Shown here: one piece after another, positions 26,241 through 63,607 of the stretch
Layout: each line of letters opens with the position of its first letter
How positions within the stretch are numbered: position 1 is the stretch's first letter
From: Pomacea canaliculata
Taxonomy: Eukaryota > Mollusca > Gastropoda > Architaenioglossa > Ampullariidae
DNA: 64,000 nt
Reading direction: 5' to 3'
Assembly (NCBI RefSeq): GCF_003073045.1
Contig: NC_037592.1
Span: forward strand, 1,709,371 to 1,773,370
The notes under the pieces: generated by a model
Database searches by the model: none
Seen by the model: the letters and a program-made list of their open reading frames with translations, nothing else
Told to the model about the DNA's origin: nothing
Position numbers and translations under genes: made by a program

Positions 26241-27288
26241 AACTGGCTTATAATAAAAAACTTATAATAAAAACTTAATAAAAACTTAATTCCACTCAAA
26301 CTATCATCTCACTTTGACTTCATCTATCCCGGGGTTATTATGCCTTAATGATGATAATGACTATGACGATTCCTTATTAACGAGGGTGGTAGAGTAAGCA
26401 AGACATGATTTTTGTCAATCTAGCCCTCGCCCTTAAAGGGACAAGAAAAAGTTGAGTAGCTAACTAATTACAAAAAAGTAATAATAAACATGAATTATCC
26501 TACATTGTGGTAATGTGTTTTAGTAATTGTCATGACGAGATGCTAAACTCACAGGGAGGACACAGCCCTTCTCATCTTCCTGATAAATTACCTGCCCAAA
26601 CAGGCTATCTTTAGCTCTGCAACACGTCACACCAGTACTTTACGCACCCAGCCCAAGGCAGTGACATTTTCTTTCTTAACCAGATTTCACAGTTTCAAAA
26701 GTGACAAGGTTGAGGTGATGTCACAGAGTGCCTTGCCCTTGACATGACACAGGTCTAGTCGGTCACGAGTCGCGGATGTCACGCACATTACAGACGAGCA
26801 GCAGGCAACATCCTGGCCACGTGACGTTGATTGAGTGACGTCGCACTGAAGGTCTGTGTTGGGCGCCCCACTAGAAAGACAAGTGCTACGTCACAGCCTC
26901 CCTAACCCCATTCCCACCCAAATACCAACAACCACTCGACTATCTGGTCATCAAACTGAGGCTGAAATACCGTTTTCTGTGCTTGTTGCTATGGAAACAA
27001 TTTCTAGTTCTTTCCGATCTACTGATCTCTCAGTGGACACGGTGGCCATCCAGCCGACCTTTCTTGTAGCAATGTTGTTCTCAGAAAAGTTGTCACTAAT
27101 TTCCAACAAATAACCGACAAACGTCACAGGTATTGTGTAAGCAGGTAAACATCTTCCTTTAAGTTGTTGACGTGGTGAGTAAGGCAGCCATGTCCACAGT
27201 GTTCGAACATTACTAATCCCAACATTCAGAGTATTCATCATACAGTGACGACTCCTCAGTGACAATTGTTGTTTTGTGTTTGATTCAG

Positions 27289-28175
27289 GAAGTGAGGAAA
27301 CAGATGATGGAGGTACGATCCCCAGCACCACTTGTCAAGTTCCTCATCTTGACGCTGAGTGTCACCCCCTGCACCAGCTTCACCTACCCGCCCCGCGCTT
27401 CTTACCCACAGACTGGTGGCTATGGCAACAAGGGCACGCAACTGCAACAACAAATGCCAATTGGCTTTCTCTACCCCAACCTCCTCAAGAACCTGAATTC
27501 CGGCTACAACTGGCAGGCACTACAACAAGCCTTACAGCAACGGCAATACGCTGGACAGCAGCAGCAACAACAGCAGTACCTGGACCGCCTGCTGCAGACC
27601 CTGTACGGCACATCTCACACAGGACAGGAGGAGGAGGCCGGCCAGCAGACACAGACGTACGAAGACATCGAGGACCTGCAGGAGGCCATTACAAGTGTGC
27701 TGGATGCAGTGTACGGCCACGTCAGCACAACTCCTTCCTCCAATGAAGATGACGATGATGTCGAGGAAGAAACTACTCCAACCACTGCTGCTGTGTCCAG
27801 TACCACGCAGTCATCCTATAATAATAATCACGATGATGACGATGAGGATGACGATGAGGATGACGATGATGATGAAGAAGCAGTGACAACTCCACGCACA
27901 GTTTCAGAGTCCAGTACCACACAGCCACCCTTTGTTGACGACAGCGATGAAGAAGAGGAAGACGATGATGAAGTAACTACGCTGTCGCCGGTGACTGAGG
28001 TCACAACCCAGTCCCTCGATGATGACGATGATGATGTTACGACGACAACTCCAGTCGTCAAGGACCTTCGCCCCTGACAGCAGTAACGAGGATGATGACA
28101 GCGAGGAGAATGAAGAGACCACTACGACCACCACAACAACTGCAGCACCTACAGCGTCTGCTAACACAGGGCCTA
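27289..28175 (+). CDS. Exon 2: signal peptide, Gln-rich and acidic region
   Basis: Acceptor TTTGATTCAG, donor CCTA|GTAAGTT (phase 1). The start codon is at 27,304, directly before a hydrophobic signal peptide. A Gln-rich part contains a run of seven Q, followed by blocks of Asp/Glu alternating with Thr/Ser/Pro (TTTPVV type), suited to calcium binding and possibly O-glycosylation. Compared with the linker exon at 31,071 there is one extra base near 28,063 (GTCAAGGACC versus GTCACAACC). As it stands the frame then ends at 28,077, giving a 257-residue acidic secreted protein. The frame of the last 100 bases is the one that fits exon 3. Confidence 0.8.
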
Positions 28176-51240: not shown

Positions 51241-52340
51241 TCTGCTAATTTACAAAGCAAGTGCTCAGTAACAAAACGAAAGTGGTACATCGTAAAAAAT
51301 GGAATGGCTTGATAAAAAAAATTCCTAGTTTCTTACATTTATTCTAGGACCATACCCTTCACACTCACACACCTTTCACTTAGTATTCAGCAGTTGAAAT
51401 GATAAAGGAAATGATTTTTTGTATATATATTTTTATTGCTTCTGCACTTTTGGAATAGCATCAGGTTTGCCTGCAGCGACATGTTCAGATATTGAGTAAA
51501 TGACAATTTCCTGACAAGTTACTAATTGCAACAAAACCCAAATTCCTCTCCTCGACATATTGACTATTGGGCAATAGTGTTCAAACTCTTCCTATCATGG
51601 ACAGACAAGCAAAGCATTAGGCATGTTTAACCAGTGCTTGTATTTGTGGGGATTTGATTTTATAACCTTTTACTTTAAGAATTCTTGAAGAAATATTTTG
51701 TGTAATCTAGCACTTCTTGACTTGGTTCATTCCTTACATCTTCACCCTTGCACTTAGTTCATGTTTTTCAGAAAGTCATCAGTTTGTGAAGCTTATGATT
51801 CAAGAATCTTTATTTTTTTCACCCTTTCAAGGGTATTGAGATATTCAAAATATACACATATTCACACGCATTACTATATATTTTATATGCAATATCCCTC
51901 TCACACACACACATTCACTGGTCAGTTTGTAACAGTTAATACATTAAAGACCATTTTTTGCCTCACTCACTTGTTCTTTCCTTCTTCTAGCCCTTTCATG
52001 CAAATCGCATCACTGCATGTGTAATCAAATAAATCAAAGTATATAAGCACATGTAAACAAGCAAAAAGTTTTGGAGGGGATGTTTCTGCCCCTCCATTTC
52101 ATTCTTACCTAAATACAGATATATACACATACATTCTTACTTATATCTGCATACATATATAAAATTCCCCCTTTACACACATACTCATTGATGTTTATAT
52201 ATATACACAAACCACATGCACATACATATATATATAAACCTTCACTCTCCCTCGACACACACGTACTCATATCAGCATATATGTATAATCTAAAATCTAT
52301 TTTCACACATGCGCACACATCTGCTTATGCATACATTTTT
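51241..52340. other. No supported gene; TA/CA-rich simple sequence
   Basis: AT-rich. From about 52.10 to 52.33 kb it is dense in ACATATA, CACACA and CATACA words, so the Tyr/Ile/Cys-rich frames there are simple-sequence artefacts. Confidence 0.5.
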
Positions 52341-52342
52341 AG

Positions 52343-52590
52343 GTATCTTCAATCAATATCAGAAGATCTGCCAGACGATGCCGTTTTCGAGCTCAATTAC
52401 AAATTGTTCGATGAGGTCCATTGCTTTATTAAAGAGAAAAAAGCATCCAACAGAAACGGAATGGACGCGGCTGGTTCCAGCAAACACAAAAGCCTGTAGT
52501 TTAATGTTTATGTAACCATTCGTTTCAGTTTGAATGTTATTTTTGTTCAAGTTATTATTTCATTGTCATTTATTTTTAAAATGAATGGTT
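52343..52590 (+). pseudogene. BESS-like motif copy 1, spliced form (likely retrocopy)
   Basis: RYLQSISEDLPDDAVFELNY, KLFDEVHCFIKEKKASN and NGMDAAGSSKHKSL end at TAG (52,499). The part up to AAAAG (52,492) matches the exon at 56,122-56,339, and the part from CCTGTAGTTTAATG (52,493) matches the exon at 57,033. In the 56-57 kb copy a 693-bp intron (GTAAAC...TTTTCAG) separates the two. Here they are joined exactly at the splice junction, so this copy probably came from a spliced RNA. The frame is open across the junction. Confidence 0.55.
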
Positions 52591-53126
52591 TGCGCTTTGT
52601 GTGTGTGGGGGTAGATACAGGGATGTAAACCTCACCTGGACATTTCAACCTCCAAAACCCATCCGTTCATTGAATATTCGTTACCAACATACGCTACTTG
52701 CACCTGCGATCAATGAGGGCTGCTAAAAGTGTATATACATCACGCCAACAGTGTATATATGTCATGTTAACAGTGTACTATGTCCCGCTGGTATATTTAG
52801 AACTAAACCACAAGCTATTTGATCAAGTACATCATTTTGTTACACAATAAAAAGCGTCCAACAGAAACTGTAGTTTTGACAATCAGAGTTATTATAGTTA
52901 CTGATAAAAGAGAAGCGAAGGGAGCCACAGCCAGGTGGGGGGCCAGGTGTGATTCTGCACACCCACTCATCGAGACCCAACTCCCACTCCTCAAGACAGA
53001 TCTACCTCTTAAAGAGACCCAACTACATCTCTTCAAGACTCTCTTCACCTCCTCAACTCACCTCCCCTGTTCAACGTAAAGCCAGCAGCTAAGGGACACT
53101 TCTTTGTCCGTTTTTATTATTTGCAG
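52591..53126. other. Spacer with a short 42-bp coding-like duplication
   Basis: At 52,972-53,055 the word GAGACCCAACT recurs 42 bp apart and encodes a periodic ETQLPLLKT / ETQLHLFKT pattern in the frame open from 52,819 to 53,079. Its start (REAKGATARWG) resembles the sequence at 55,880. Otherwise no gene is seen. Confidence 0.4.
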
Positions 53127-53321
53127 CAAAACACAGAAGAGTGAATAGAGCTAAACCCTGGGAGGAGTGATTCTGCTCCACAAAGCAGAGGGTATCTGCG
53201 CTCCATTACTGATGGTCTATCGGAGGAAGAGTCTCTCCAGTTGAATTATACATTGAACTCCGAGGTGCGTCGATTTCTCAACGAGAGGAAAGCGCCTCAT
53301 TAGAGACGGCCAGCAGAAAAG
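53127..53321 (+). pseudogene. BESS-like exon copy 2
   Basis: Acceptor TTATTTGCAG, donor AAAAG|GTAAACC. It holds SDSAPQSRGYLRSITDGLSE, LNYTLNSEVRRFLNERKAPH and a stop. The first third has stops in the frame that leads into the motif, so this copy is probably decayed. It is nearly identical to 55,215-55,407. Confidence 0.45.
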
Positions 53322-53401
53322 GTAAACCATCATAAAGAAAAAGACACGCTATCAAGGTGTCTTGGAAGAGAGTAGCCCTGTACATACAATAAAGAACCTT
53401 T

Positions 53402-53550
53402 TTAGAACTTATATATACTCTAAAGTAAATATACTATTTATTTATTAATTCCAACCATGTCGATTTAATTTAATGTAGTTAATTTAATGTACCCCCACAC
53501 ACATATGCATGGCTAGACACATTAATTAAGACTTTTTAAATTATTTGCAG
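53402..53550 (+). repeat. Intron segment repeated through the cluster
   Basis: ACTTATATATACTCTAAAG with TATTTATTTATTAATTCCA recurs at about 53,408, 54,142, 55,497 and 56,789. GTACCCCCACACACATATG then TTAATTAAGACTTT recurs before the exons at 53,551 and 54,055, and in part at 58,290. These show that the cluster grew by duplicating exons together with their introns. Confidence 0.75.
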
Positions 53551-53605
53551 AGAAATAAAGAAGAGGATCTGCCTGGACCAAGCAAAGGGAAAACCGACAA
53601 GAAAT
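53551..53605 (+). CDS. Cluster mini-exon: RNKEEDLPGPSKGKTDKK
   Basis: Acceptor AAATTATTTGCAG, donor T|GTATGT. The 55-nt exon is phase 0 in and phase 1 out. It encodes a charged, Lys-rich, probably disordered segment. Its last T plus the first two bases of the next mini-exon make Cys, keeping the frame open. Confidence 0.55.
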
Positions 53606-53794
53606 GTATGTAAAAGTTAAACATCAGATCTGTAGAAAATAGTTCTGGATATTATTTTCACTTTGGACCAATGATACCCTATGAATGACATTATAGATTT
53701 CAAAATGACCTTAGAGGAAAAAAATTCTTAAATGTTTAAGATCTAATGTTTTCTAATTTTTGAAATGACTTTTTTCTCTCTTTTTTCAAAATAG

Positions 53795-53823
53795 GTAAAG
53801 GAAAGAAAAGGAGATTAGAAGAG
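53795..53823 (+). CDS. Cluster mini-exon: NLS-like KGKKRRLEE
   Basis: A 29-nt exon between TTTTTTCAAAATAG and GAG|GTAAGT. With the T carried in it reads C-KGKKRRLEE, a basic cluster of nuclear-localisation type. A second copy at 57,284-57,318 has the same phase and encodes MEGKRKRRRQE, so selection for basic residues is plausible. Confidence 0.55.
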
Positions 53824-54054
53824 GTAAGTCCGTTATGTTTCTTCTGATTTTATTTACCTGATATAGTAGGTTGAAATATACACATGCATAATGTCTTCTT
53901 TTTTAAAAAAAAAAAGCTTGGCTTCTGGTCAGTTTGAAGTACAAGCAGAATGTAGCAATTTTTTTTTAGGATCAGGTTAAGTTAATTTAATGTACCCCCA
54001 CACACATATGGATGCCTAGACACGTTAATTAAGACTTTAAAAAATTATTTGCAG

Positions 54055-54112
54055 GCCGCCGATAGCGACGACAGCAGGAGCAGCACACCCACACCTCAAA
54101 GAGAGAATCAGG
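54055..54112 (+). CDS. Cluster mini-exon: AADSDDSRSSTPTPQRENQ
   Basis: Acceptor AAAATTATTTGCAG, donor G|GTACGT, phase 0 in and phase 1 out. The Ser/Asp/Pro-rich segment looks disordered and phosphorylatable. Its AAD start and the intron in front match the exons at 9437 and 9774, linking the two loci. Confidence 0.55.
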
Positions 54113-54415
54113 GTACGTACAATACGGAACGTTTATTTAACTTATATATATATACTCTAAAGGAAATATAATATTTATTTATTAATTCCATGTCCAAAGT
54201 CAATGCAGAATACCACGCTCATCAGAGAAGGATTAGAGCACAAGTTAACAAATACATGAAAGGCTTCTCAAAATCTAGATCTGAGAATCTCCTCTCAGAA
54301 CTCTTTCTGTAGGATTGGTTTCAGTTGCCATTAGATTATTTGTATTTAGTGTGATCGATACCAACACAACCAGGTACGGAGTGTCAGAAGTCTTTTTGCG
54401 TGGTTTTTTTTTCAG

Positions 54416-54565
54416 CGAAAGGTGGCTCTCGCCACAGAAGAAAACTTAAAGCTATCGAAAACTTATGTGGCCTTATCCAGTCCGCAGCGGAGGGACTATA
54501 CCTAGAGCAAGTACTTCCGCTAGGCATAACGACGAAGTTTTCAAGAATTTGCCACTGGTGGAGAG
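54416..54565 (+). CDS. BESS-like exon copy 3 (diverged)
   Basis: After TTTTTTTTTCAG it continues the frame of the previous exon: A-KGGSRHRRKLKAIENLCG, then LIQSAAEGLYLEQVLPLGIT, with donor GAGAG|GTAAACC. 150 nt, phase 1 to 1. Four consecutive exons (53,551; 53,795; 54,055; 54,416) read through in phase. The helix pattern is that of the other copies but with few identities. Confidence 0.5.
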
Positions 54566-55001
54566 GTAAACCATCATACAGCCAGTAACTAAGGCTCTAA
54601 GGTCATAGATGAACAAGTTTTGTAAATGGTTGAAACATGCAGAAAATAAAAACAGCATGCCTGAGATGAAATTTAAAACCAGGACATTCATTTATCTTTA
54701 TTCTCATACATGGAAATATTTAGTTACAACACATTTGGTCCCCAGAAGAATAAGTAGTCTTTCTTCTTTTGGAAATTGTAAATTCAGTTATATGAGAACA
54801 TTGAGATGATGAAATTCTCATACCAACGGTCTACCATTTTCCAGACTCCAGCGCAAGAGATGGCGCACAACGAGGAAACACGAAATTACCTGTGACTTCT
54901 GCTTGCTGTCATCCAGTTTTTGTGTGTTTAATTTCTTTTTTAACTTTTGCGTTAAAGACTCGAATAAATCATAAACTGAAGCGTTATCGAAGTTACGAGC
55001 T

Positions 55002-55118
55002 GTGCAACAGCTATTTGGTTTTCTCCAAACTATATCTGAAGGATTATCGTTGGAAGACTTCTTAAAACTTAGTCTCATTCTCCATACAGAAACTAATAAA
55101 TTTCTCATTGCCGAAAAG
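55002..55118 (+). pseudogene. BESS-like exon copy 4
   Basis: QQLFGFLQTISEGLSLEDFL, KLSLILHTETNKFLIAEK, then donor AAAAG|GTAAACC. Upstream, KLKRYRSYEL lies in another frame, so one frameshift separates the basic start from the motif. A related short exon-like piece (SSARDGAQRGNTKLP) follows an acceptor at 54,844. Confidence 0.4.
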
Positions 55119-55214
55119 GTAAACCATCATAGAGAAGACTCCACTCACCTCCCCTGGTTCACCATAGAGCCAGCAACTAAGGGACACCTCTTTGTCCATT
55201 TTTATTAGTTGCAG

Positions 55215-55407
55215 CAAAACACAGAAGAGCGAAGGGAGCCAAAGCCAGGATGGAGTGATTCTGCCCCACAAAGCAGATGGTATCTGCGCTCCATTTCTGA
55301 TGGTCTATCGGAGGAAGAGTCTCCAATTGAATTATACATTGCACTCCGAGGTCCGTCGATTTCTCAACGAGAGGAAAGAGCCTAATTAGAGACGGCCAGC
55401 AGAAAAG
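55215..55407 (+). pseudogene. BESS-like exon copy 5
   Basis: Acceptor TTAGTTGCAG. EERREPKPGWSDSAPQSRWY and LRSISDGLSEEES, then after a 2-base loss relative to copy 2 LNYTLHSEVRRFLNERKEPN. Copies 2 and 5 are about 95% alike including the intron starts. The frameshift makes this copy unlikely to give the full motif. Confidence 0.45.
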
Positions 55408-56121
55408 GTAAACCATCATAAAGAAAAAGACACGCTATCAAAGTGTCTCGGAAGAGAGGAGGAGCCGAGTACATACAATGCAGAACGTTTTTATAACTTA
55501 TATATACTCTAAAGTAAATATACTATTTATTTATTAATTCCAACCATGTCCAAATTCAATGCAGAATACCACGGATGAAAGAGCATGAATGACAAAAGAG
55601 AGTTTTTTACAACTTGACAGTATAACATTTTTTTGTGTTTTGTTTTGTTTTGCTTGCATATGTATAAGATAAATTGTGATGATTATGAAGGGAGGCAAAA
55701 CCAGGGGAGAGTGATTCTGCCCCACCAAGGAGAGGGAGGAGGTTGAATGAAAAAAATGGGGAAACAAAAGATTTTCTCATTAAAGGTGAGCTTTACAGCA
55801 AAGCTTACAGAGGACATTATTAGAGATCTCCTTTTTGGAAGTACATGATATGTGAGTCAATGTTATTATTTGCAGAAAAATCTAGAAAAGCGAAGGGAGC
55901 CACAGCCAGCTGGGGAGTGATTCTGCACTTGATTTAAAAAAAAAAACGGATGGAAAAGCGTGAATGACGAAAGAGATTGAGTGACAAAAGTTCTCAGAAT
56001 GCGTTTATGGATGATGTAAATTATTTGCTGTTGACCTATTTTGTCTTCTTTCTTCACTGATCGATACCAAGGCAATAAGGTACGGAGTGTAGGAAGTCTT
56101 TTTGCATCTTTTTTTTTTCAG
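55408..56121. other. Intron-like stretch with degraded exon pieces
   Basis: It contains the repeated intron word near 55,497, two degraded copies of the REPQPG-type exon start (55,690 and 55,875), and GTGAATGACGAAAGAG at about 55,959, shared with 8,382. Confidence 0.45.
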
Positions 56122-56339
56122 CCTATAGAAACACAAAGCGGGGTAGATGGTCGCTCAAAAAAGCCAGAACAAGCGAGTACCTATTTTGGTACATGCAATC
56201 TATTACGGAGGGGCTTCCAGAAGAGGCAGGACTTGAAATCAATTACAAATTGCACACTGAGTATTACCAGTTTTTGGAAGAGAGAAAAGCATCTCATTAG
56301 ATACAGAATGGGCATAGCTGGTTCCTACCAGCAAAAAAG
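56122..56339 (+). CDS. BESS-like exon copy 6, intact
   Basis: After TTTTTTTTTTCAG the exon reads, in the phase left by AADSDD...ENQ: A-YRNTKRGRWSLKKARTSEY, then YMQSITEGLPEEAGLEINYK and YYQFLEERKASH with a stop at 56,298-56,300. Helical spacing and the E-[DG]-LPEE turn recall BESS motifs, which mediate protein-protein contacts in insect transcription factors; this is inference. The next donor, AAAAAAG|GTAAACC, leads to the exon at 57,033, whose copy at 52.5 kb encodes the extension ending KSL. Confidence 0.55.
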
Positions 56340-57032
56340 GTAAACCATCATAAAGCCATTAACTAAGGCTCTGACATGAAAGATGCAGTAACTAAGGTAA
56401 ACCATCATAAAGCCAGTAACTAAGGCTCTAACGTCATAGAGGAACCAGTTTTGTAAATAGTTGAAACATGCAGAAAATGAAAACAGCATGCCTGAGACGA
56501 AATTTAAAACCAGGACATCTATTTATCTTTATTCACGATCAACTCTAAACTGTTGCACCACTAGACTGACCTCAGCGCGAGAAAGATATGAGTGCAGCTA
56601 GGGAATGCATGTTTGAACGGTCAGCAATGGAGGAGTGGGGTTTTATTATTTTCTTACAAAGTTCAAATTGTGCATAATCATTTGCAAAGATTATGGTTGC
56701 CTGCGGTTGTTACATGGTCTCCAAAAAAAGGAGAGGGGCAATGGAAGAAAGGAGGAGCCCTGTACTTACAATACAGAACATTTATTTAACTTATATATAC
56801 CCTAAAGTAAATATACTATTTATTTATTAATTCCAACCATGTCCAAATTCAATGCAGATTAGATACCTTCGATCGATTACCGAAGATCTACCAGAAGAAG
56901 TGTGTTATTTACGTAGGTGGATGACTGTTTAGTCAAGCAAATTGTTACTTCATATATGGATTATTTAGGTAAATGAATGACAGCAAAGTCACAATGTATT
57001 GAACCTGTGACTTTCATTTTTTTTTTTTTCAG
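56340..57032 (+). other. Intron absent from the 52.3 kb copy; partial motif inside
   Basis: GTAAAC to TTTTTTTTTTCAG. Inside, TTAGATACCTTCGATCGATT near 56,867 begins another partial motif copy (RYLRSITEDLPEEV), and the segment 'ACGTCATAGA-GAACAGTTTTG, AACATGCAGAAAATGAAAAC' at 56,428-56,528 repeats 54,600-54,700. Confidence 0.5.
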
Positions 57033-57150
57033 CCTCTAGTTTAATGTTTATGTAACCATTCGTTTCAGTTTCAATGTTATTTTTGTTCAAGTTGTTCTCA
57101 TTTCATTGTCATTTATTTTTAAAATGAATGGTTTGCGTTTTGTGTGTGTG
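57033..57150 (+). CDS. Last exon of the cluster gene (SL-stop and 3' UTR)
   Basis: CCTCTAGTTTAATGTTTATG follows a long pyrimidine tract and AG. In the frame seen in the spliced copy it adds only Ser-Leu-stop, then a 3' UTR about 95% identical to 52,499-52,590. Confidence 0.45.
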
Positions 57151-57283
57151 TGTGTTTTGGGGGTGTGTAGATACTGGGATTTAATGCATATGTGGTCCTT
57201 TGGCTGCCTTAAAAATACTTTAATGTTTTAGACCTAATGTTTTATAATTTTAAAGTGACTTTTTTCTCTTTTTTTCAAAATAG

Positions 57284-57318
57284 TGATGGAAGGGAAAAGG
57301 AAAAGAAGAAGACAAGAA
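57284..57318 (+). CDS. Cluster mini-exon, second copy: MEGKRKRRRQE
   Basis: A 35-nt exon between TTTTTTTCAAAATAG and GAA|GTAAGT, phase 1 in and phase 0 out as in the 53,795 copy. The basic run KRKRRR is NLS-like. The intron that follows is also shared (GTTTCTTCTGATTTTATTTA). Confidence 0.5.
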
Positions 57319-57579
57319 GTAAGTTCCTCATGTTTCTTCTGATTTTATTTACCCATTCCTGACGGCTGTTTACTTTGCATGCTTGGGAGTAGTGTTAGCT
57401 CAGGAAAGGCATTTTATGTTGCTTTTGCTTGCTTTTTGACAGTTTTATTTTGTTAGCCTTATTTTCTACTGTATTTATCTTCCATAAATCATTGGTGTTT
57501 TATATGGGTATTCTTATACTAGTAGGTTGAAATATGCACATGTATAATGTCTTTCTTTTTTTTTAAAAAAAAAAAAAAA

Positions 57580-58840
57580 AAGCTTGGCTTCTGGTAAGTT
57601 TAAAGTACAAGCCGAGTGCAACAATTTTCTTTAGGATCGTTTTTTTTTTTTTCCGAATACCTATGGATACCAAAAAAATGGATACCAAAAGACTCCGGAA
57701 AGAGGATCTCAACCAGACCTGGGCAAAGGCCGGCCCGCCTCCTATCTCTGACCGGCCCGCCCGATTTAAAAAAAAAAAAAAAAAAAAAAAGCTTGGCTTC
57801 TGGTAAGTTTAAAGTACAAGCCGAGTGCAACAATTTTTCTTTAGGATCGTTTTTTTTTTTTTCCGAATAGCTATGGATACCAAAAAAAATGGATATCAAA
57901 AGACTCTGCCAAGAGGATCTTAACCAGACCTGGGCAAAGGCCGCCCGCCTCCTATCTCTGACCGGCCTGCCCGCTTTAAAAAAAAAAAAAGCTTGGCTTC
58001 TGTAAGTTTAAAGTACAAGCCGAGTGGAACAATTTTTCTTTAGGATCGTTTTTTTTTTTTTTCCGAATAGCTATGGATACCAAAAAAAATGGATACCAAA
58101 AGAAGCCAACAAAAGAGGATCTTAACCAGACCTGGGCAAAAAGGCCGGCCCGCCTCCTATCTCTGACCGGCCCCGCCCGCTTTTAAAAAAAAAAAAAAAA
58201 AAAAAAGCTTGGCTTCTGGTAAGTTTAAAGTACAAGCCGAGTTGCAACAATTTTTCTTTAGGATCAGGTTAAGTTAATTTAAATGTAGCCCACCCCCAAA
58301 AAAATATGCATGCCTAGACACATTAATTAGACTTTTTTTTAATATTTGCAGTCAGATTCTAAAACAAGTCAATATGATATATGAAGGGAAAGCGAGATGC
58401 GCCACAAAAGTCCCTATGTTTCTTCTGATTTATTTAACCTGTAAAACCTGACTACTGTGTTTACTTTGCATGCTTGGGAGTAGTGTTAGCTCAGGAAAGG
58501 CATTTTATGTTGCTTTTGCTTGCTTTTTGACAGTTTTATTTTGTTAGCCTTATTTTCTACTGTATTTATCTTCCATAAATCATTGGTGTTTTATATGGGT
58601 ATTCTTATACTAGTAGGTTGAAATATGCACATGTATAATGTCTTTCTTTTTTTTAAAAAAAAAAAAAAAAAAAAAGCTTGGCTTCTGGTAAGTTTAAAGT
58701 ACAAGCCGAGTGCAACAATTTTTCTTTAGGATCGTTTTTTTTTTTCCGAATAGCTATGGATACCAAAAAAATGGATACCAAAAGACTCTGCCAAGAGGAT
58801 CTTAACCAGACCTGGGCAAAGGCCGGCCCGCGTATCTTTT
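57580..58840. repeat. Tandem array of about 200-216-bp units with hAT-like words
   Basis: AGCTTGGCTTCTG starts units at 57,581, 57,790, 57,990 and 58,206, and again at 58,675. Each has an A tract, AAGTTTAAAGTACAAGCCGA, TTTCTTTAGGATCG, a T tract, AGCTATGGATACCAAAAAAA, and ACCAGACCTGGGCAAAGGCC with GGCCCGCC. CAGACCTGGGCAAAGGCCGG looks like the end of a hAT element. The segment 57,370-57,580 (TACTTTGCATGCTTGGGAGT onwards) recurs at 58,458-58,670. Confidence 0.8.
58352..58391 (+). CDS. Cluster mini-exon remnant: SDSKTSQYDI
   Basis: It follows the same intron 3' pattern (CCTAGACACATTAATTAG, T tract, AATATTTGCAG) as the exons at 53,551 and 54,055. It reads SDSKTSQYDI and stops, so it is a truncated or alternative end. 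Confidence 0.35.
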
Positions 58841-61176: not shown

Positions 61177-62990
61177 CTAAGCTTTCATTGTTTTTAACAC
61201 ACTGGCTAATTTACTGTGTGCTGCTTTGTGTTTTTTTCTTGGCAGGAGCTGACAGCTTTCTGATAAATTTCTCTTTTTTGTATTATTAGAAAATTTTGCA
61301 TTGATTGGTTTTCTGCCACTTTGCAAGCACCGCCTGCCCCCAACATATGTTGTTCGACGGGCAATTGCTGATGGCTGAACAGGAATAATACCCCGTCGAA
61401 CAACTGAAGAGACTCCAGTGTTTTCTCCAAAATTGAAAAGTGCTGTCGACAGTGCACTTGTGGTTCTTAACTTTTCAAATTTTTTAATAAAACTGTCAGC
61501 AGCTGGCAAAAGTTCGTCATTATTTTCTATTTCTTTTAAAAGTTTGTCCATGGTTTTTTTTAATTGTTGTATTATATCATCATTCTGTCTGTTAGTGGTA
61601 TGGATGTCAAACTCGTCCTCGGAGTCATGTGTCGATATTTCTTCAATCCTGTTGTTGTTGTCAGTCTCAAATTTTGTGTCTTCAGTTTCCAAATTTGTAC
61701 TGGAAGTATGCGGTTCAATGATGTCTTCTCGATTATCAACAAGAGGCTGGAACCATTCCTCCTGAATATTATCATGTCCAGTTGCTAGCTGGAAGAAATG
61801 TCTCCTTGCTTTGATATCCTTAATAGGAAATATATTACATGAAGAAACATTAAAAAATTTTATGACAGCATGCTGGTGCTTGCAGGGTGCACCTGTCATG
61901 CCATTTGGGCAAGAACACATGTCTGTGTTCATGTCTACTTGGTATGACTTACCATGTTCATTCTCACTTTTTAACTTCAAAAATAAAATCTCCTACAGAC
62001 TGAACCATTTCCCTCTTAATATTTTCTGTACCATATAAATAACGTCTGCTAACTGTAGCATCTCTCCTACCATTGGCAAGGTTCAACAGCCGCCTTTCAT
62101 AGTAGGCAGGAAGCCGTGTTAATAAGAAATCAAGCAGCTGCTGAGTGTTATAGGCACGTGTGCGGCAGAAGATTTTATCTTTCAAAACATGCATAGCTGC
62201 TTCACAGTAGTTGTTTGTGTTATTTCCACGCACAGGAAGGTCTTTTCTAAAAGTGACTGCCCATAGACTTTTTCGTTCAAACTGCTTTTCTAAATACAGT
62301 TTGAATTTGGGATTGTTCCTAACAACATCATCTCTACAGGCATTATCATAAACATTAACTATTTCATCATCACTCTGAGCATAAACCATTTTTTTGATGA
62401 TGCTCAGTAGATGAGGCCTGCTTTCTTTTTGTATGTTGTTTCGGGCCTCCCAGAGGAAGCGCCAAGCGGCCTGAAGTACATGAAACGTACAAAGAAGAAG
62501 TGTTGCTTCAGGGAATGCAGCTTGCAGGCTCTGCCTTTCAGCACTACTGTCATCTGTGAGGAACACCTGAGGTCCTCTATTACCCCTTCCAAAAAAAGCA
62601 TCAGAGGGCAAAAGTTCTTTATACAGTGACAAGGCATCTGTTATTACTTCTGTTGCTTCAGAAGAAACAATAAGGCAGCCTAAAGGGAGTCCACCTGCAA
62701 CACTGTGAGTGAGAAGCAGGAAAACTCTGAAGTCATACCTGTCCACCCCCCCTGAGGCATCCATAAAAACGAGTTCACCACTTGCACGGTGCAGTGTGTG
62801 CACTCTCATCATGAGGGGAGTGCAGACAGCTATGGCTATCTTCCCTGATGCTGTTTCTTTTACCTTGCAGAACTCCCCATTTAGTTCTGCATTGAATGTC
62901 CTGCAAGCTGTCTCTAGGCTGTCAATCAGCTGTTCTGAAGAGGTTGAAGAGGATGAAGGGTATTTCTCATCAAATACTTTTTTGTACAGC
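61177..62990 (-). CDS. MULE-type transposase with SWIM zinc finger, main exon
   Basis: Acceptor TCCCTACATTTCAG. DDE landmarks in order: FMDASGGVDRYDF (first Asp), VFLTDDSSAERQSLQAAFPE (second Asp), CTFHVLQAAWRF, and TNNYCEAAMHVLK (catalytic Glu). A SWIM zinc finger follows: CSCPNGMTGAPCKHQH (CxCxnCxH). The C-terminal part is acidic, then basic (RGIIPVQPSAIARRTTY, RKKHK). A run of five A on the coding strand (61,968-61,972) holds one base too many: the DDE part ends at VKK-stop and the SWIM part opens in the next frame, with EVKSENEHG restored by dropping one A. It cuts and pastes DNA if active. It could also be a domesticated gene, as introns are present. Confidence 0.82.
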
Positions 62991-63607
62991 CTGAAATGTA
63001 GGGAGAGGAAGAAATGAAATAAGAAAGAGTGTCTTATTTTCTTTGTTTGGAATAAATTAAAGTTAATTAACCTAATGGCTTAGTCCTTACATCGACCAAA
63101 TACACATGTGATATTTGCTCATCAAAAAAAGACTTTACTACAAGAGCTGAAGTATGCTACAAGAATAAAATAAAAACACAGATAAAATTTTTTAAAAACT
63201 GACATGTTTCATGCTTGCTCTGTCCAAACTAAGGACATTCAACACCCCTTACAATAGAAGAAAAATAGCTCAATGTTCAAATCATAGACATTTTAGGCAC
63301 TATTTACTTCTCATTTCTTCATCAAATCAATATTGCAGTTTCTGATAAAATTTTATAATATAATAAACCCAAAAACCTTGATTGTAAGGGTATAACATTA
63401 GCAATTATACTGTGCTCTAACGCTTAAGGCACATATTTATTTATGTGAACTTATTTTTAATTGTATAGTAAACGTATAAGAATACACAAGTAAAGAAACA
63501 CTAGGGACTTGGGGATTATGTAGAACAGGTGAAATTATGGTCAAGTCATGTGTAAAATGCTATGAACATCTAATTCTATTGATAAACCAGCTGCAGATGT
63601 TAAGTAC
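62991..63607 (-). other. Intron of the MULE-type gene
   Basis: GTACTT to TACATTTCAG. The phase agrees (two bases plus one make Arg). AT-rich with no other feature. Confidence 0.6.

Follow-up and report, generated by a model that had tools for sequence, protein, structure and literature searches.

What raises a question at this locus is a run of short exons that join in matching phase and carry the same terminal motif many times over, within a 64,000-nucleotide stretch of the Pomacea canaliculata genome (NCBI RefSeq assembly GCF_003073045.1, contig NC_037592.1, positions 1,709,371 to 1,773,370; hereafter, the window). An earlier note on this DNA had proposed an undescribed multicopy gene family combining one basic N-terminus with alternative, BESS-like C-terminal motifs. 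Our analysis suggests that these exons probably form a block, now partly decayed, within a large tandemly arrayed P. canaliculata gene family, whose members would be small module-bearing proteins and whose exons would be exchanged through near-identical introns. The link to homeobox genes, the contrast between exons and introns and the apparent decay of the window unit are new beyond that note. In the following, contigs are numbered with C (the window lies on C3) and loci with L, and window features are on the plus strand unless stated otherwise.

The unit comprises exon B (53551..53605, 55 nt, acceptor CAG, donor GTATGT), which starts in phase 0, leaves one nucleotide over and encodes RNKEEDLPGPSKGKTDKK, the basic mini-exon C (53795..53823, 29 nt, TAG, GTAAGT), whose product KGKKRRLEE resembles a nuclear localisation signal (NLS) by eye, and exon D (54055..54112, 58 nt, CAG, GTACGT) with the Ser/Asp-rich segment AADSDDSRSSTPTPQRENQ. 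Two terminal exons harbor the predicted two-helix module, exon E (54416..54565, 150 nt, CAG, GTAAACC) and exon F (56122..56300, CAG, ending in TAG), the latter with an intact module, the C-terminus ...FLEERKASH and relatives in L009 and L010. Joining B, C, D and F gave a single frame to the stop codon (RNKEEDLPGPSKGKTDKKC KGKKRRLEE AADSDDSRSSTPTPQRENQ A YRNTKRG...FLEERKASH). The exon coordinates and splice sites proposed earlier were right to the base, and joins of D to 54,416 and to 56,122 both read through in phase. However, the C-terminal part of E departs from the family's reading frame because of a 5-nt gap relative to its closest relative of 155 nt (L024 5742-5896); the two exons differed at 28/151 sites plus 5 gap columns, and their adjoining introns at 4/302 and 2/82 sites. 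Basic runs had been claimed for two mini-exons, and the second is indeed encoded at 57284..57318 ((M)EGKRKRRRQE with an internal ATG, donor GTAAGT), in a layout matched by L009 4848-4876.

Between most copies, the lengths of B, C and D differ by multiples of three. Exon B of L024 has 43 nt, a 12-nt in-frame difference (9/43 aligned sites differ versus 3/189 in the following intron), exon C has 26 nt in L024 and 29 nt in L009, where it contains an ATG, and copies of exon D measure 58, 79, 61, 52, 49 and 46 nt, all 1 mod 3, the 46-nt copy of L024 being without an AG acceptor. Exceptions are the D exons of L034 (50 and 47 nt) and exons C (27 nt) and D (78 nt) of L010, and in four L033 copies examined for a D acceptor none was found. 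The L009 copy (C3:0.07 Mb), whose frame opens at the ATG of exon C, continues in D and closes with a stop in F (93 codons), is an example of a complete small member. Upstream of B, L024 contains a short exon (ATGGAGGAG, followed by the donor GTAAGT); for the window unit a motif search yielded no start exon. Since two of its terminal copies also bear deletions of 4 and 5 nt, the window unit looks decayed, while the 56,122 exon is intact.

Further copies of the terminal motif were detected in three protein searches of the genome, in which the best candidates were scored and weak and partial hits included, so that the counts are lower bounds. The motif occurs at at least 113 places (143 hits), 54 of them on C3, 36 on C6, 20 on C11 and three on C9. 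They are mostly clustered and confined to these four of 24 contigs, which is far beyond chance. Differences between C3 terminal exons were three-periodic, with rates of 0.325, 0.205 and 0.516 at codon positions 1, 2 and 3 (pairs of 15 distinct exons, whose freedom from frame-0 stops results from their selection). The ratio of nonsynonymous to synonymous change (dN/dS) was 0.02-0.33 in those E-exon pairs for which it could be computed, many pairs being saturated, and 0.05-0.35 in F-type pairs; the slices used extend a few codons beyond the donor, and among them are copies of L024 and L025 that overlap or are frameshifted. When 20 in-frame E exons were compared in all 190 pairings and the results pooled, differences were found at 0.627 of the synonymous and 0.224 of the nonsynonymous sites. 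These 20 were chosen from 54 motif hits, the others having no standard acceptor or donor, or containing a stop. E-exon length was 2 mod 3 in 21 of 27 cases, and in 21/31 over all terminal exons with an acceptor, as none of the four left out (window 54416, L033 2716 and the F exons of L009 and L010) qualifies. Number of places, periodicity and conserved phases thus corroborate the assumption of a multicopy protein-coding family. No published account of this family or of Pomacea homeobox arrays was found in the open-licence literature, a scope outside of which most subscription-journal papers fall; to that extent the family is undescribed, as had been supposed.

In-frame E exons start in phase 1 and end in phase 0. 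Therefore, two of them joined would break the frame, and they would be mutually exclusive provided that splicing uses the GTAAACC donor. The earlier idea of alternative C-terminal motifs on a shared basic N-terminus is supported by tandem E exons that agree in acceptor phase and are out of frame with each other; splicing as predicted would have to choose one of the several terminal exons standing there. Dscam likewise possesses tandem mutually exclusive exons of similar size and intron spacing (130-160 bp with introns of ~100-200 bp; passages of PMC3236188). According to the same passages, gene conversion between paralogous Dscam exons was not found, whereas the snail cassettes look exchanged and their introns homogenised.

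The most conspicuous property of the arrays is the unequal divergence of exons and their surroundings. Four long pairs of C3 sequences differed by ~1-3% in introns and flanks and by 19-37% in exons, with synonymous sites near saturation and the protein constrained. When the window unit was compared with that of L024, 61/266 exon sites differed versus 21/744 elsewhere (odds ratio 10, p=2e-21); the other comparisons gave 56/167 versus 14/1294 (L024 and L032), 61/167 versus 11/1031 (L025 and L032) and 32/165 versus 8/966 (L024 and L025). The contrast was also clear in one of three alignments of L009 with L010 (13/103 exon sites versus 12/1688). Among 27 E exons of six loci, the median difference was 0.341, compared to 0.048 for the 85 bases of intron next to them, and the exon difference exceeded the flank difference in 337/351 pairs. 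Many array copies have near-identical introns, and the proposed amplification of exons together with introns is supported. Divergence restricted to exons between alike introns is known from snake venom genes (ASSET), whose introns are >85% alike and whose exon segments are profoundly different (passages of PMC2711939). Those genes encode toxins that are secreted and show excess amino-acid change, while the snail family has a constrained protein and nearly saturated synonymous sites.

The same contrast would arise if the introns were functionally constrained and the exons evolved at the neutral rate. A 476-base stretch of the window comprising exon D with intron sequence on either side is 87% alike between C3 and C6, which fits this idea. 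Near-identity reaches beyond the introns beside exons, however. L024 and L032 share a 1.3-kb stretch with 1.1% difference that lies mostly upstream of the exon, and the window and L010 a microsatellite-rich 1.1 kb (47/1070 sites differ, plus 83 gap columns). Because the near-identical non-exon DNA thus takes in >1 kb of upstream sequence, intron constraint alone is insufficient, and we regard this explanation as quite improbable.

How the exons came to differ is indicated by the distribution of the differences, which is largely two-state: 54/351 pairs lie below 0.10, nine at 0.10-0.20 and 288 above. Near-identical exons recur in opposed C3 blocks ~100 kb apart, L024_2335 and L033_5682 differing by no substitution and a single one-base length difference. 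Moreover, recent tandem duplicates (L033, L034, L032) exhibited 1/1163, 1/210, 0/167 and 1/156 differences at exon sites as against 46/2670, 14/3334, 8/1438 and 12/3015 elsewhere, hence no exon excess. Most of the 46 non-exon differences lie in one whole switched exon. Such exons, located on the reverse strand of L033 at about 1097-1266 and 2457-2626, are unannotated and were counted with the other sites. Recurrence of near-identical cassettes over ~100 kb and the lack of an exon excess in recent duplicates favour a process in which old exon cassettes would be switched en bloc between homogenised introns.

Hypermutation directed at exons, by a deaminase or error-prone copying, would likewise limit divergence to exons, and exon-limited rapid change has precedent in the venom genes (passages of PMC2711939). 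Yet 440 transversions stood against 141 transitions at fourfold sites, which fits saturation and shows no deaminase bias, the recent duplicates are free of any exon excess, and the protein is conserved; this explanation is disfavoured as highly improbable. Selection at the mRNA level would drive copies apart at every spliced-in site, synonymous ones included, for example to escape silencing by small RNAs, leaving the introns free to stay alike. Consistent with it, divergence ends at the splice sites and affects synonymous sites most; exons 2852 and 3099 of L024 encode proteins that are 93% identical, yet ~25/37 synonymous sites have changed; and the opposed orientations of the arrays (10.72-10.80 Mb minus, 10.83 Mb plus) could yield antisense RNA. 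On the other hand, exons are nearly unchanged in recent duplicates, and 34% exon difference beside flanks differing by 1.1% is better explained by a moved block. We therefore consider such selection unlikely as the cause of the pattern.

It is also conceivable that the copies derive from a transposon family, of which they would be the remains, and do not form a host gene. They are numerous and many are broken, a few dispersed partial matches occur on C1, C7, C8 and C10, and the window itself contains a MULE-type transposase at 61-63 kb (61177-63079, minus strand, two overlapping frames, PF10551, E 7.4e-7). Against this stand the restriction of the motif to four of 24 contigs, mostly in clusters, its conserved reading frame, and the positions of the other MULE matches, all outside the clusters. 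A transposon origin, which would have contradicted the earlier note, gained no support from these matches and appears distinctly unlikely. Nor was there support for the MULE as a vehicle; it is a dispersed element, and of 66 matches in all, none of the others lies in another cluster. A copy on C9 is identical over the 300 residues searched, further copies are dispersed elsewhere, and the window MULE is probably a recent insertion.

AlphaFold2 predicted two helices both for the exon F module (residues 3-25 and 31-55) and in a second module prediction (5-28 and 33-54), with predicted local distance difference test (pLDDT) values of 84.1 and 88.1. The earlier note had called the motif BESS-like. 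BESS domains have ~40 residues with two predicted helices and dimerise (passages of PMC10573801 and PMC5021357), and the snail module resembles the MADF-BESS and BEAF factors in being a ~40-residue C-terminal module of two predicted alpha helices. It differs from them in that the snail members tested gave no Pfam BESS match and the clusters no MADF hit. Assignment to PF02944 failed: the genome scan gave 15 matches, none in a cluster, a true BESS motif residing elsewhere (C1:17.088 Mb, 35.4 bits), and among family members 0/30 and 0/22 (overlapping sets) matched, for which reason the module was rejected as Pfam BESS. Alignment by hhalign with one BESS sequence of this snail was not significant (E 0.046, probability 1.15%, 13 columns), and the 105 MADF matches of the genome all lie outside the clusters. 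A two-helix fold of ~40 residues is predicted as in BESS; it is a generic fold and as such weak evidence of kinship. Pfam's own BESS text reportedly describes three helices. In summary, it is plausible that the module, a predicted two-helix hairpin, works like BESS by analogy, while the sequence comparisons do not show that it is BESS.

A second group of genes is associated with the module on C6 and C11. Clusters on both contigs hold homeodomain exons that end at position 46; on C6 a separate third-helix exon RWFxNRR follows, the next exon beginning at 47, whereas no such exon was seen in the one C11 locus examined. PF00046 scored above the Pfam threshold in many of these exons in a genome scan covering 150 of 271 candidates, and in 5/6 C6 exons scanned singly (best E 7.8e-12). 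An intron between positions 46 and 47 is presumably a mark of the PRD class, and judged by their boundaries the C6 exons conform to it. Counting ordinary homeobox genes as well, 26/46 homeodomain places on C6 and 11/28 on C11 have a module exon at a distance of no more than 5 kb; the footprint of the module exons in this test is 0.4% of each contig. Conversely, 34/36 module places on C6 and 17/20 on C11 lie within 5 kb of a homeodomain place. The binomial p-values of this association are nominal, as clustered places were treated as independent. The divergent homeodomain exons, split after position 46, form tandem arrays on C6 (3.06-3.16, 4.21-4.24, 6.21-6.26 and 8.56-8.59 Mb) and C11 (7.24-7.26, 8.98 and 13.66-13.69 Mb), many copies of which are broken. 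They resemble the divergent homeobox genes of lophotrochozoans in the split after position 46 and the expanded clusters (passages of PMC5322547); the C3 arrays including the window differ in that no homeodomain exon was found there, and those passages make no mention of a companion two-helix module. Introns with the acceptor TTATTTGCAG are common to the C3 and C6 arrays, which are for this reason related at the DNA level.

A profile of the C6/C11 homeodomain exons run over the window and 13 C3 loci scored none of the family loci; only L030, an unrelated homeobox gene, scored (8.8e-5), the rest being 0.8 or worse. A homeodomain at C3:1,442,872 was considered as the missing N-terminus and rejected as a separate homeobox gene, which we take to be Dbx-like.

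Several observations weigh against the reading of the window as part of a protein-coding family with exon exchange and a link to homeobox genes. None of the 13 homeodomain places on C3 comes within 5 kb of any of the 54 module places there, and on C9 the result was 0/2 against three module places. For C6-type pairs, with few changes to count, dN/dS varied between 0.11 and 1.48, so that constraint is not shown on this contig, and 7/28 C6 pairs with an aligned flank under ~5% have a synonymous distance of <=0.08 and hence no contrast between exon and flank. This contrast was weaker in the two other alignments of L009 with L010 (26/244 versus 46/1047 and 25/285 versus 26/926), and a fifth comparison of recent duplicates revealed none either way (8/327 at exon sites versus 47/1502, the second count including an unannotated switched exon). 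In F-type copies the putative GTAAACC or GTAAGCC donor sits 3' of the stop codon. Frameshifted copies are many, 6/27 E-exon lengths not being 2 mod 3; some of these frameshifts may be homopolymer errors of the long-read assembly, others look real. Finally, the predicted template modelling scores were only 0.49 (exon F module) and 0.58 (second prediction), and comparison with solved structures by fold and by sequence gave no meaningful match.

Single-base length differences were noted in several terminal exons (L024 2335-2502; L033 3840-4249, reverse strand), the one of L024 in a homopolymer run; they may be errors of the long-read assembly.

A hidden Markov model (HMM) of the terminal motif gave nine hits in the window, corresponding to eight copies because those at 55278 and 55318 are halves of one frameshifted copy. 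The earlier count of six or seven copies, some broken, was right as to multiplicity and has to be raised to eight; only F is full and intact. Besides E and F, the HMM detected a copy (RYLQSISEDLPDDAVFELNYKLFDEVHCFIKEKKAS...) at 52323..52499 that has lost its 5' part, which is kept in a copy of L012 with a stop near its end; a copy at 53135..53321 in which an in-frame stop precedes the motif and AAAAG/GTAAACC is located 3' of its stop codon; one at 54975..55118 (donor AAAAG/GTAAACC) with a 4-nt deletion relative to L024; the copy at 55209..55407, frameshifted near 55,318; a fragment at 55750..55845; and a truncated copy (IRYLRSITEDLPEE) at 56858..56899, similar fragments of which occur in L024 and L025. 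Tandem repeats of ~200 bases of a family intron with poly-A/poly-T tracts extend over window positions 57556-58745, continuing beyond the window, and over L012 2078-7877. Elsewhere in the window, a 286-codon open frame (27217-28077) with a hydrophobic stretch near its start and Gln-rich and long Asp/Glu/Thr stretches looks by eye like a secreted acidic protein; it gave no convincing Pfam match.

According to the model that we propose, intact members would be small proteins in which a short linker rich in Ser/Asp or Gln connects a brief basic, NLS-like N-terminus to a C-terminal two-helix module of 45-55 residues. Exchange via near-identical introns would homogenise introns and flanks, while the exon lineages would stay old, diverged and constrained in their protein, and would be moved en bloc between positions. 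By analogy with BESS domains, the module would most likely enable nuclear factors to form homo- or heterodimers, and the C3 family may represent an offshoot without homeodomains that acts as partner or competitor of the C6/C11 homeodomain factors. A farther-reaching version, speculative and in our opinion rather doubtful, would see in the C3 arrays an exon-cassette switching system in an intracellular regulator, in which identical introns would serve as exchange platforms and old pools of mutually exclusive dimerisation modules would be shuffled between positions. The homeodomain-free proteins would pair with and tune the C6/C11 homeobox factors, possibly in an arms race also selecting on mRNA sequence.

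Exon-limited divergence is known from secreted venom proteins in which amino-acid change is favoured (passages of PMC2711939); here it affects an apparent small nuclear protein under constraint and consists mainly of synonymous differences. The family would thus be a clean test case of the ways in which exon and intron histories become uncoupled by gene conversion, by crossing-over within introns and by selection. Its link to tandem homeobox arrays points to a fast-evolving cluster of regulatory genes in an invasive snail.

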